From positions 62,001-126,000 of the forward strand of contig NZ_JAXIVS010000017.1 in assembly GCF_034259325.1 (NCBI RefSeq): 64,000 nucleotides of DNA, given 5' to 3'. Origin of the DNA: Hyalangium ruber. Lineage in GTDB: Bacteria > Myxococcota > Myxococcia > Myxococcales > Myxococcaceae. The notes beneath the pieces were generated by a model that was given only the letters and a program-made list of their open reading frames with translations, ran no database searches and was not told where the DNA came from. A program made the position numbers and the translations under genes. Every line of letters starts with the position of its first letter. Positions within the stretch are counted from its first letter, which is position 1. Shown in pieces: positions 50,533 through 53,966 of the stretch.

Positions 50533-50610
50533 GGCGTGCCCATCCTACCGACGGCCGGGGAAAAAACACGTCACACGTAACCTCCCTGGTCCGCTAGCTT
50601 GCCTGACCCG

Positions 50611-51777
50611 ATGCCGACCTTTCCCCAGGGTGCCGTGGATGTGGTGGATGCCCCAGGCGCCCAGGCCGCCGCCCGGACGCTGGAGGCGACCCGTGAAGTG
50701 GCCGTGGACCTGGAGGCGGATGCCATGCACGCCTTCCGGGCGCGGCTGTGCTTCCTCCAGCTGGGCACCGACTCGGAAGTGTTCCTCTTCGACACCCTGG
50801 CCCCCGGGGTGGACGCTCGCCTGCTCGCTCCCTTGATGGTCGACCCGGAGCGGACCAAGTACTTCCACGCCGCCCAGGGAGACCTTCAGTACCTGGCGGA
50901 GGCGGGGGTGCGGGTGCAGGGCCTCTTCGACACCCACCGGGCGGCGACGCTGCTCGGCTGGCCCAAGGTGGGCCTGGCGGACATCGCCCGGGAGCGTCTG
51001 GGGGTGGAGCTGCCCAAGGAGCACCAGCAGTCGGACTTCTCGCTGCGCCCGCTGCCCCCAGGCATGCGCGACTACATCGCCAATGACGTGCGCTACCTCT
51101 GCGAGCTGGGGCGGCAGGTGCGCGAGGAGTGCCGCAAGGCCGACATCCTCGAGGAGGTGCTGCTGGACTGCGCGCGCATGTGCGAGGAGGCCGCTGTCCG
51201 GCCGGACGTGGGCGCGGACTTCAAGCCCAAGCTGCCGCGCTCGGGCCTCTCGCCGGCGCAGGTGACGCTGGCGACGGCGGTGGCGCACGCGCTGCACCGC
51301 AAGCGCCTGGAGTGGGCCGAGAAGGCCAATGTGCCCATGGGGCGGATGTTGTCGGCCATGGCCATCGCGGACATCGCGGTGAAGCTGCCCACCAACCCCA
51401 AGGAGCTGGCGCGCGCCGCGGGTGTGCGGGGCTCCTTCGTGCGGGAGCACGGCGACGAGGTGCTCGCCATCGTCCGCGAGTGGGTGGAGAAGGGCCGCCG
51501 GGGCGAGCTGAAGCCCGAGCGCGAGTCCAAGGACGGGCGGGACCCCAACCGGCGCAAGCGCGAGGAGGCGCTGAAGACGTTCCGCTCGGCGAAGGCGGCC
51601 GAGCGCAAGGTGACGCCCTCGGTGGTGCTGACCAACCCGCTCATGGACGCGCTGGCCTCCACACCGCCGCGCACCCTGGAGGAGTTCTCCCAGGTGCCCT
51701 GGTTCGGAGAGAAGCGGGTGCGCCTCTATGGGGCGGAGCTCCTGACGCTGCTCGCGCAGTACCCTGTAAGCGTTTGA
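50611..51777 (+). CDS. rnd: Ribonuclease D-like 3'-5' exonuclease
   Basis: 388 aa from ATG 50611. DEDDy exonuclease: VDLEADAMHAFRARLCFLQL (Asp33, Glu35), HAAQGDLQYLAEAG and YIANDVRYL (the Tyr-Asp end). HRDC-like helical regions follow at about 205-295 and 355-388. Trims RNA 3' ends. A hairpin with a short T-tract lies 9 bases after the stop. Confidence 0.92.
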   Translation: MPTFPQGAVDVVDAPGAQAAARTLEATREVAVDLEADAMHAFRARLCFLQLGTDSEVFLFDTLAPGVDARLLAPLMVDPERTKYFHAAQGDLQYLAEAGVRVQGLFDTHRAATLLGWPKVGLADIARERLGVELPKEHQQSDFSLRPLPPGMRDYIANDVRYLCELGRQVREECRKADILEEVLLDCARMCEEAAVRPDVGADFKPKLPRSGLSPAQVTLATAVAHALHRKRLEWAEKANVPMGRMLSAMAIADIAVKLPTNPKELARAAGVRGSFVREHGDEVLAIVREWVEKGRRGELKPERESKDGRDPNRRKREEALKTFRSAKAAERKVTPSVVLTNPLMDALASTPPRTLEEFSQVPWFGEKRVRLYGAELLTLLAQYPVSV

Positions 51778-51785
51778 GGGTCCGC

Positions 51786-51815
51786 ATCCCTCGCGGGCCC
51801 CGCGCGGGGATTTCT
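51786..51815 (+). terminator. Probable intrinsic terminator after rnd
   Basis: Stem ATCCC (51786-51790) with GGGAT (51807-51811), and inner CGCGG (51792-51796) with CCGCG (51800-51804), separated by small internal loops. Followed by TTTCT. It sits 9 bases past the rnd stop, in the right position for transcript termination. Confidence 0.5.
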
Positions 51816-52060
51816 GATCGATATCTCACGGGATGCGCGCGTCATTGCCCGAGGGCCCTTCCGCCCTCCGCAATGCGGAATACCCTGTGACGTACCCAGT
51901 TCGAGCACGCGCTGATCGGCCCGCCCGTTTTGCCGGAGTTCCTCGAAGAGCGGTCCAGGGGGTTCGGTGTGAGCCTGCGCGTACTCTTCAACCACGGGTG
52001 GGACGAGGGTCGACGCGTCGGACATGTGCGGGCGCCTGACAGGGGCCGGAGGCAGTTGCG
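51816..52060. other. 245-base spacer before the Cys-rich protein
   Basis: No gene, repeat or clear promoter was found between the terminator-like hairpin and the Cys-rich protein gene, apart from GGAGG at 52048-52052 which serves that gene. Frames here lack coding character. Confidence 0.5.
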
Positions 52061-52462
52061 ATGGGGGACACCGTGCATAGCTTTGGGTCCGCTGTGGAGG
52101 TGGCCGGCATGATGGGTGTGAGAACGGGCGTGGCGAGGTCGGACATTTCTCAGTGCATCACCGCCAGCCTGAAGTGCCAGGCCGCGTGTGAAGCAGGAAT
52201 GACGCGGCTGGTATCCGAGGGGCACGCGGCTGACAGCGACAACGTCCGGTTGCTGCGGCAGTGTGCGGAGCTGTGCGAGCTGAACGCCCGCGCGCTTCAG
52301 AAGGACAGCAGCCTGGCGCGGCGCACGGCGAGCATCTGCTTCGAGCTGAGCAGCCAGGTGGCGCGCGTGGCGTGGCTGGACTCGAACGCGACGAGCGCGG
52401 CGCTGGCGCGCGATGCGCTGATCCTGGCGCGGGCCTGCAAGCTGCTGCTGTTCGCGAACTGA
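52061..52462 (+). CDS. Small Cys-rich four-helix protein (DUF326/Csp-like)
   Basis: 133 aa, no signal peptide. Predicted helices carry seven Cys at 32, 39, 43, 68, 72, 93 and 126, in patterns CITASLKCQAAC, QCAELCEL, ICFE and ARACK. Spacing along one helix face resembles copper-storage (Csp) and DUF326 four-helix bundles, which fill the core with Cu(I)-thiolate sites. The match is by pattern only; these usually have more Cys. Converges on the M32 carboxypeptidase with one base between stops. Confidence 0.65.
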   Translation: MGDTVHSFGSAVEVAGMMGVRTGVARSDISQCITASLKCQAACEAGMTRLVSEGHAADSDNVRLLRQCAELCELNARALQKDSSLARRTASICFELSSQVARVAWLDSNATSAALARDALILARACKLLLFAN

Positions 52463-52463
52463 C

Positions 52464-53966
52464 CTACAGCGAGACGCCGTACAGCGCGCCGTACTTACCC
52501 TTGAGGTAGCTCAGGAAGTCCGCGTCGGTGAGGCCCTGGCCCGTCACCTTGCGGATGAGCTCCTCCGCGGGCACGCGATAGCCCTCGCGGTGGATGTTGT
52601 CGCGCAGCCAGTCGCGCAGCGGCAGCAGCTCGCCTCTGCGGATGTGCCCCGTCAGCTCCGGGATGGCGCGCTCGGCGGCCCGATAGAGGGACGCGGAGTA
52701 GAGGTTTCCGAGCGCGTACGTGGGGAAGTAGCCGAACTCGCCCCAGGACCAGTGGATGTCCTGGAGGACGCCCAGCACATCATCCGGCGGCGTCACGCCG
52801 AGGTAGCGGCGCATGCGCTCGTTCCACGCGGCGGGCACATCCTCCAGCGGCAGCTCGTCGTGGATGAGCAGCAACTCCAGCTCATAGCGAAGGACGATGT
52901 GGAGGTTGTACGTCACCTCGTCCGCCTCGGTGCGAATGAGCGAGGGGCTCACGCGGTTGACCGCCCCCAGGAACGTGTCCAGCCCCACGCCGGAGAGCGC
53001 CTCGGGGAAGGACTCGCCAAGGGCCGGGAAGAAGTGCTCCCAGAAGGCGCGGCTGCGCCCCACCACGTTCTCCCAGAGGCGCGACTGCGACTCGTGCAGG
53101 CCCATGGAGGGCGATGCGGCCAGCGGCGTGCGGTAGTGGGCCTCATCGAAGCCCTGCTCATAGAGCCCGTGGCCCGCCTCGTGGATGGTGCTGAACAGGG
53201 CGTTGAGGGGGTTCGCCTCGTCGATGCGCGTGGTGAGGCGCACATCGCGCGGGTGCGTGCCGCCGGTGAAGGGATGGATGCTCCGGTCCTGCCGACCCGC
53301 CTCCAGGTCGAAGCCCGTGGCCTCCAGCAGCTTCAGGCTGAAGCGCCACTGCGCCTCCGCGTCGAAGCGACGGCCCTCGGGCAGGTCCGCGACCTTCCGA
53401 GGCGCGGAGCCGATGGCGGCCACCATGGGGATGAGCGCATCCCTCAGCGCGGTGAGCACGGGGGTGAGGCGGGAGACGCGCATCCCGGGCTCGTACCCCT
53501 CGAGGAGCGCGTCATAGCGCTCGCCGTCATGGCCGTAGGCATCCGCCTGCTCGCGTCGCAGCTGCAGCAGGCGCGCGAGGGCGGGCTGGAACAGGGCGAA
53601 GCGCTTCTCCTTGCGTGCCTGGCGCCAGGCATTCAGCGCGCGGCTCTGCGCCTCGGCGAGCGCCTTCACCAGCGCCTGAGGAACGCGCACCGCCCGGTCC
53701 CGCTCGTGGGTGAGCACCCGCACCATGGCGCGCTGGTCCGCGTCGAGCTCGGAGCGCGAGGCGGCCCAGGCGAGCACCTCGCCCAGGCGGGGGTCCACCA
53801 GCCGCTCGTGGTAGAGGCCCTGCAGGGTGGAGAGCTGGTGGGCCCGCGCGTCGGAGGCCTTGGCGGGCAAGTACGTCTCCTGGTCCCAGGTGGCCAGGCC
53901 GATGACGCCGTTGAGGTCCTTCAGTTCCTGCATCCGAGCCAGCAGCGCGGGGAAGGTGCGGTCCAT
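52464..53966 (-). CDS. M32-family carboxypeptidase (Taq type)
   Basis: 500 aa. Zinc metallopeptidase of family M32: HEAGH at 262-266, third ligand Glu292 in HESQSRLWEN, and DRSIHPFTGG / TTRIDEANPLNALFSTIHE around them. All-helical fold, cytoplasmic. Removes C-terminal residues from peptides. The length is as expected. The start at 53966 gives MDRTFPALLARMQEL. Confidence 0.94.
   Translation of the reverse strand: MDRTFPALLARMQELKDLNGVIGLATWDQETYLPAKASDARAHQLSTLQGLYHERLVDPRLGEVLAWAASRSELDADQRAMVRVLTHERDRAVRVPQALVKALAEAQSRALNAWRQARKEKRFALFQPALARLLQLRREQADAYGHDGERYDALLEGYEPGMRVSRLTPVLTALRDALIPMVAAIGSAPRKVADLPEGRRFDAEAQWRFSLKLLEATGFDLEAGRQDRSIHPFTGGTHPRDVRLTTRIDEANPLNALFSTIHEAGHGLYEQGFDEAHYRTPLAASPSMGLHESQSRLWENVVGRSRAFWEHFFPALGESFPEALSGVGLDTFLGAVNRVSPSLIRTEADEVTYNLHIVLRYELELLLIHDELPLEDVPAAWNERMRRYLGVTPPDDVLGVLQDIHWSWGEFGYFPTYALGNLYSASLYRAAERAIPELTGHIRRGELLPLRDWLRDNIHREGYRVPAEELIRKVTGQGLTDADFLSYLKGKYGALYGVSL

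Follow-up and report, generated by a model that had tools for sequence, protein, structure and literature searches.

A cysteine-depleted form of the copper-storage protein fold in myxobacteria

The myxobacterium Hyalangium ruber encodes a seven-cysteine protein that is a new, Cys-depleted form of the copper-storage protein (Csp) fold and not a Csp3 as that family is defined. The bundles of described Csps are packed with 13 to 20 Cu(I). The gene lies in a 64,000-nucleotide stretch of contig NZ_JAXIVS010000017.1 (positions 62,001 to 126,000; this whole stretch is called the window and its numbering is used throughout), and its product is, rather probably in our judgement, a cytosolic, low-capacity Csp derivative with one small predicted Cu(I)-thiolate cluster.

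Results

Gene and start codon

The open reading frame from 52061 to 52462 on the forward strand, which the sequence-only reading had described as a seven-cysteine helical protein, is present and encodes 133 amino acids with seven Cys; the start of the gene, however, is almost certainly the ATG at 52109 and not position 52061.

52109..52462, forward strand: seven-Cys Csp-fold protein, corrected frame, 117 amino acids plus stop
52096..52101, forward strand: ribosome-binding site GGAGGT, seven bases before ATG 52109

Besides the GGAGGT just upstream, this choice is supported by an ATG at the equivalent place in 64 of the 64 other loci, where it is the first Met common to all, and by in-frame stops a few codons before that ATG in two of them (L012 and L026). 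Substitutions counted by codon position show no bias ahead of ATG 52109 (4, 3, 4 and 2, 2, 2), the corresponding counts in the body of the gene being 16, 7, 29 and 13, 7, 24, and the first 16 codons of the frame opened at 52061 overlap a conserved promoter-like element. With dN/dS values of 0.21-0.45 between the window copy and 10 orthologues, the sequences indicate that the gene is under purifying selection. No signal peptide could be recognised by eye in the protein.

Fold and relationship to copper-storage proteins

The AlphaFold2 model, computed as a single chain from 27 orthologues, consists of four helices (residues 10-36, 44-64, 70-89 and 94-114 of the 117-residue form) with a mean pLDDT of 91.2 and a pTM of 0.84. 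When the model was compared with the PDB by VIA-align, the best 25 rows all had the Csp fold (Z 15.5-18.0), the next, unrelated fold following at Z 11.9; besides Csps, these 25 entries comprise the Csp-like PA2107 and fusion proteins whose names mention 3KAW (PA2107). The best Foldseek match is Cu(I)-BsCsp3 (TM 0.80/0.88), and in the structural alignment the register does not shift between the two ends, model residues 12 to 115 lying on residues 4 to 108 of 5fig_A.

A single-sequence query already reaches BsCsp3 at E 0.0027, while the orthologue profile finds 3lmf (NmCsp3) at 5e-6 and 5fig (BsCsp3) at 1e-5 in the PDB; in the reverse direction, the Cys-rich Csp3 of a relative used as query returns the window gene as the best match in its own genome (E 1.2e-7), and hhalign of the seven-Cys profile with a Csp3 profile gives E 2e-9. 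A four-helix bundle, sequence homology and, by alignment, Cys on the core columns are all found in the protein, so that the likeness to copper-storage proteins proposed by the sequence-only reading is borne out by two-way homology, by the fold and by the placement of 7/7 Cys on Csp core-Cys columns. The protein has no match to Pfam DUF326 (PF03860), for which nothing in the genome lies above the curated cut-off; this cut-off is passed by Cys-rich paralogues from two other loci (L067 and L070). It also stays under every NCBIfam cut-off, TIGR04401 included. In an unrooted tree, 60 distinct seven-Cys rows and 12 Csp3 rows are split by a 100/100 branch at which long branches meet; the seven-Cys proteins may form a branch apart from the Cys-rich Csps, an origin inside Csp3 being possible.

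The seven cysteines

Conservation was assessed on 65 proteins, 60 of them distinct, that comprise the window protein and those of 64 fetched loci. The seven Cys are C16, C23, C27, C52, C56, C77 and C110 in the 117-residue numbering and, as the sequence-only reading had stated, their number is lower than in copper-storage proteins, where 13 to 19 are usual.

52154..52156, forward strand: Cys16 codon, helix 1, closed end; equivalent to BsCsp3 Cys8 and MtCsp3 Cys24; Cys in 64/65
52175..52189, forward strand: Cys23-x3-Cys27, CXXXC of helix 1; equivalent to BsCsp3 Cys15 and Cys19; 65/65, and 12/12 Csp3s
52262..52276, forward strand: Cys52-x3-Cys56, CXXXC of helix 2; equivalent to BsCsp3 Cys45 and Cys49; 65/65, and 12/12 Csp3s
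52337..52339, forward strand: Cys77 codon, helix 3; equivalent to BsCsp3 Cys70; 65/65, and 12/12 Csp3s
52436..52438, forward strand: Cys110 codon, helix 4, closed end; equivalent to BsCsp3 Cys103; 64/65, and 12/12 Csp3s

The full set is kept in 64 of the 65 myxobacterial proteins: C23, C27, C52, C56 and C77 are Cys in every one, C16 and C110 in all but one. Sixty proteins have exactly seven Cys in total, the others having eight (n = 2), nine (n = 1) or ten (n = 2). All seven Cys belong to the 40 positions out of 117 that are conserved above 97%, an outcome with a chance probability of about 4e-4. The one exception (L071, from genome G011) has Ser for C16 and Ala for C110 and has gained Cys at 81 and 107, so that its total is still seven; its C81 falls on a Csp3 Cys column and creates a third CXXXC, the CXXXC pairs of helices 1 and 2 being retained. 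Hardly any variation is seen in helix 2 and at the beginning of helix 3, where R50, Q51, E54, R61, K65 and R71, with charged residues among them, are kept as well, and the sole His of the protein, H39, occupies a variable position.

Cysteines kept and lost relative to Csp3

The seven-Cys proteins were aligned with 12 Cys-rich Csps, eight from Myxococcota and four from plasmids of Paenibacillus and cyanobacteria. This alignment holds 16 majority-Cys columns, of which the seven Cys fill seven (columns with Cys in 11-12 of the 12 Csps); the hypergeometric probability of 7/7 is 1.7e-6, an optimistic value given that the aligner partly rewards Cys matches. The nine other majority-Cys columns hold S20, L34, A74, S81, V84, A88, L99, A103 and L106, and S20, V84, L99 and A103 are fixed in 60/60 distinct proteins where Csp3 has Cys.

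In BsCsp3 numbering, counted on the printed alignments and in agreement with D42, H84, H86, H88 and C67 of PMC10155185 and PMC5171941, the kept Cys are C8, C15, C19, C45, C49, C70 and C103. Counting along the helices from the pairs Cys24/Cys11, Asn58/Asp42/Met46, Leu87/Cys67 and Ala128/Met108 given in the same two papers, they would correspond to MtCsp3 C24, C31, C35, C61, C65, C90 and C125, and Cys97, 101, 114 and 118, as well as Cys38, 54 and 111 and the mouth His, would be lost relative to MtCsp3. In MtCsp3, Cu(I) is bound by CXXXC motifs, Cu4 thiolate clusters make up the core and the cluster of Cys97, 101, 114 and 118 fills first (PMC5519932), while C24 is a bridge between Cu1 and Cu2 in the hydrophobic closed end (PMC10155185). 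Such a hydrophobic closed end is typical of Csp3s (PMC5171941, PMC10155185), and that of the seven-Cys protein is hydrophobic too (L63, A74, L113). By alignment, the closed half of the bundle is where the retained Cys fall, and neither the mouth ligands nor the cluster that loads first in MtCsp3 appear to be left; no His or Met mouth ligand was recognised in the seven-Cys protein.

The sequence-only reading had further placed the Cys on the inner face of the bundle. This is supported for helices 2-4, where a hydropathy helical wheel sets C52, C56, C77 and C110 on the hydrophobic face and where these Cys lie on Csp3 Cys columns. On helix 1, however, the wheel puts C16, C23 and C27 at 60-100 degrees off that face, so that for this helix the core-facing orientation depends on the Csp3 alignment (the wheel overall gives p 0.0055 against random positions).

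Comparison with described Csps

Among the non-classical Csp3s, RkCsp3 (6zif) and NmCsp3 (3lmf) are four-helix bundles like the seven-Cys protein (Z 17.7 and 17.5), 3lmf being also the best sequence match of its profile, and all three lack the His motif of helix 3-loop-helix 4 and have a hydrophobic closed end. RkCsp3 differs in that its three core Cu4 clusters all retain their Cys and in that it binds about 17 Cu(I) (PMC10155185), whereas the seven-Cys protein has lost nine majority-Cys columns, among them all those with Cys in the mouth half of helices 3 and 4. The classical Csp3s BsCsp3, MtCsp3 and SlCsp3 share with it the fold (Z 17.0-18.0), the CXXXC pairs of helices 1 and 2 and, judged by eye, the lack of a recognisable signal peptide, but they have 18-19 Cys and three mouth His where it has seven Cys and zero mouth His (PMC10155185, PMC5171941), and the Asn58/Asp42-type ligand described in these papers is replaced by Leu49. 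Neither the 13-19 core Cys of Csp3 nor the His motif of helices 3-4, or mouth His of the RkCsp3 type, was found in the seven-Cys protein. Csp1 (MtCsp1, TIGR04401) is alike in fold (Z 15.5-16.1) and differs by its 13 Cys, Tat export and mouth Met (PMC5171941, PMC5519932); TIGR04401, unmatched by the window protein, is weakly matched by two Cys-rich paralogues from relatives.

PA2107 of Pseudomonas aeruginosa, compared by structure alone, is alike by fold (3kav, Z 17.1; 3kaw, Z 16.9; 21% identity) and is described as uncharacterized in its entries; literature text searches for PA2107 as a known low-Cys relative gave nothing relevant. Among open-licence papers of PubMed Central, judged by title and start of abstract and with supplementary Csp alignments outside the search, none deals with a myxobacterial or seven-Cys Csp.

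Distribution

Scanning the contigs of species genomes yielded 26 relatives; apart from one, their records bear myxobacterial titles (Myxococcus, Corallococcus, Pyxidicoccus, Archangium, Hyalangium, Citreicoccus and unplaced Myxococcaceae). The 27-row profile matches 66 of 145 genomes of the window's class, and a search of the phylum gives 66/195; 65 of these 66 genomes belong to the window's own family (E 7e-33 or better), the other (G093) having a Cys-rich Csp instead. The seven-Cys gene is thus present in all 65 genomes of its group. Matches to the Csp3 profile occur in 88 of the 195 Myxococcota genomes, and a Cys-rich Csp is also found in 32 of the 65 seven-Cys genomes, its absence from the other 33 being provisional, as scoring was restricted to the best first-look candidates. 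In the window's own genome, neither the Csp3 profile nor a Cys-rich query gave a further Csp match.

Cys numbers in the 55 further distinct Csp copies that were inspected range from 12 to 19, in most cases with the count limited to the matched part (30 copies with 15-16, 20 with 12-18, and L065 together with four plasmid proteins with 15-19); the matches of G003, G008, G021, G057 and G081, as well as the third one of G114, do not enter this count. No form intermediate between the seven-Cys branch and the Cys-rich Csps was seen among these sequences (7-10 Cys in the 65 proteins versus 12-19 in the 55 copies). Outside Myxococcota, the sampling consists of one species-genome scan and plasmids. 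One contig, BNCN01000001.1 (L024), is titled Comamonas sp. KCTC 72670, and its locus is Myxococcus-like, which points to a mislabelled strain or assembly: its seven-Cys gene is about 62% identical to that of the window and nearly the same as those of the Myxococcus loci L022 and L023, with RNase D in the same place.

Gene neighbourhood and upstream element

50599..51777, forward strand: ribonuclease D-like protein (3'-5' exonuclease plus HRDC), upstream neighbour; 26/29 loci
51726..52025, reverse strand: divergent O-methyltransferase remnant, only the gene start left; recognised by tblastn to the copies of relatives
52055..52085, forward strand: promoter-like element GTTGC-N13-GTGCATAGCTTTG; footprint over 65 upstream regions
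52464..53966, reverse strand: M32 carboxypeptidase, convergent downstream neighbour; 24/29 loci

The neighbours in the window recur in most of the 29 loci compared, and no copper gene is among them; two Archangium loci with another setting have no obvious copper gene either (ORF starts set by eye), and no CueR- or CsoR-like operator was seen by eye near the seven-Cys gene. The O-methyltransferase is intact in several relatives (L004, L025; the L025 copy is a Methyltransf_3 at E 7.5e-68) and leaves no trace between RNase D and the seven-Cys gene in L001; its remnant is probably not part of the function of the seven-Cys protein.

The upstream element, readable in the window as TTGCGA, 16 nt and TAGCTT, has the conserved form GTTGC-N13-GTGC-TA--TTTG before the ATG, and its TTGC lies 51-61 bases upstream in 64 of 65 regions. 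The element is also present in Corallococcus loci in which RNase D is the immediate upstream neighbour and a methyltransferase could not be found, so its assignment to the seven-Cys gene is the most likely one. A sigma-70 scan gave nothing at threshold over the element, so that its designation as a promoter depends on conservation only. One perfect match and two with 3 mismatches occur in the genome, the same number as for the reversed-pattern control, and there are hence no further copies beyond chance. For CorE, an AAC within the -35 and a G within the -10 region are described (PMC3107203); since the element carries GTTGC on the sense strand, we do not claim control of the seven-Cys gene by CorE.

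Discussion

Cu(I) binding by the seven-Cys protein is likely in the light of its kinship and of its aligned Cys, and a small cluster rather than a full store would be expected because only seven Cys, those of the closed half, are kept. The putative cluster would sit in this closed half, formed by the CXXXC pairs C23/C27 and C52/C56 and closed below by C16, C77 and C110. At about one Cu per Cys, as in Csps, a monomer might take up to about seven Cu(I), the simplest arrangement being one Cu4 cluster plus some two-coordinate sites. In helices 3 and 4, the mouth half would have been rebuilt with Val, Ala and Leu, by which both the first-loading sites of MtCsp3 and the His/Cys mouth sites would be absent; the protein would then not be a bulk store but would keep a buffered reserve or donate to a single partner. 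A hydrophobic mouth half suggests that Cu is delivered or removed with the help of a partner, or as the bundle breathes. Against this reading speak the number of Cys, a hallmark of the family, which is under half, the want of a copper gene or operator nearby and of recognised His or Met at the mouth, the missed DUF326 and NCBIfam cut-offs and the helix-1 Cys that the hydropathy wheel sets off the core. It is tempting to go further and to imagine, doubtful as this still is, a clade-wide Csp branch that gave up bulk storage, in which a half-empty bundle would bury just one Cu(I)-thiolate cluster, have it loaded by a partner protein and not via an open mouth, and serve regulation or the metallation of one enzyme, unlike every described Csp.

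With exactly one Cys left on each of helices 3 and 4, every mouth copper ligand gone and copper genes absent nearby, one could also suppose that copper is no longer the ligand and that the closed-end C16, C77 and C110 make with C56 a tetrahedral Zn(II) site or an Fe-S cluster. We consider this unlikely: the Cys found in 65/65 proteins are the two CXXXC pairs and C77, not the closed-end set, and the L071 protein drops two closed-end Cys while it keeps the CXXXC pairs and gains a third, an exchange that, in this single sequence, would fit a flexible thiolate cluster better than a Zn site of four fixed Cys. Ranked below it in our estimate, and improbable, is a copper sensor, chaperone or redox switch handling one to two Cu(I) or reversible disulfides, whose helix 2 and start of helix 3 would offer the surface that docks a partner. 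The near-invariance of precisely this surface, with charged residues unneeded for a Cys core, and the universality of the gene in the clade would fit this; yet known Csps form no disulfides and their fold is a storage fold (PMC10155185), and no suggestive partner gene is linked in the 29 loci compared.

Seven Cys left of the 18-19 of classical Csp3 might also be taken for a decaying Csp3 copy that sheds Cys without any new function. This explanation is largely refuted, and we give it hardly any credence: dN/dS is 0.21-0.45, the remaining Cys are nearly invariant, several of the replaced positions are fixed and the gene is present in all 65 genomes of the group as against 32 in which a Cys-rich Csp was found.

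Returning to a low-capacity Csp derivative with one small cluster, the universality of the seven-Cys gene in the clade, next to the patchy occurrence of Cys-rich Csps, points to the small-cluster role as the more essential of the two for these bacteria. A natural seven-Cys Csp shows which thiolates evolution retains once bulk capacity is lost, and the protein offers a small test object for the formation of a Cu4-thiolate cluster without mouth and first-loading sites.

It is worth adding that thirteen loci from other genera of the family and phylum (L149-L156 and L158-L162) encode a Csp-like protein in whose matched part 12-14 Cys were counted. Aligned helices 1 and 2 carry few of these Cys and helices 3 and 4 carry many, and an N-terminal segment resembles a signal or a linker. 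From their Cys distribution, these proteins would represent a second, differently depleted Csp branch, almost the mirror image of the window protein.
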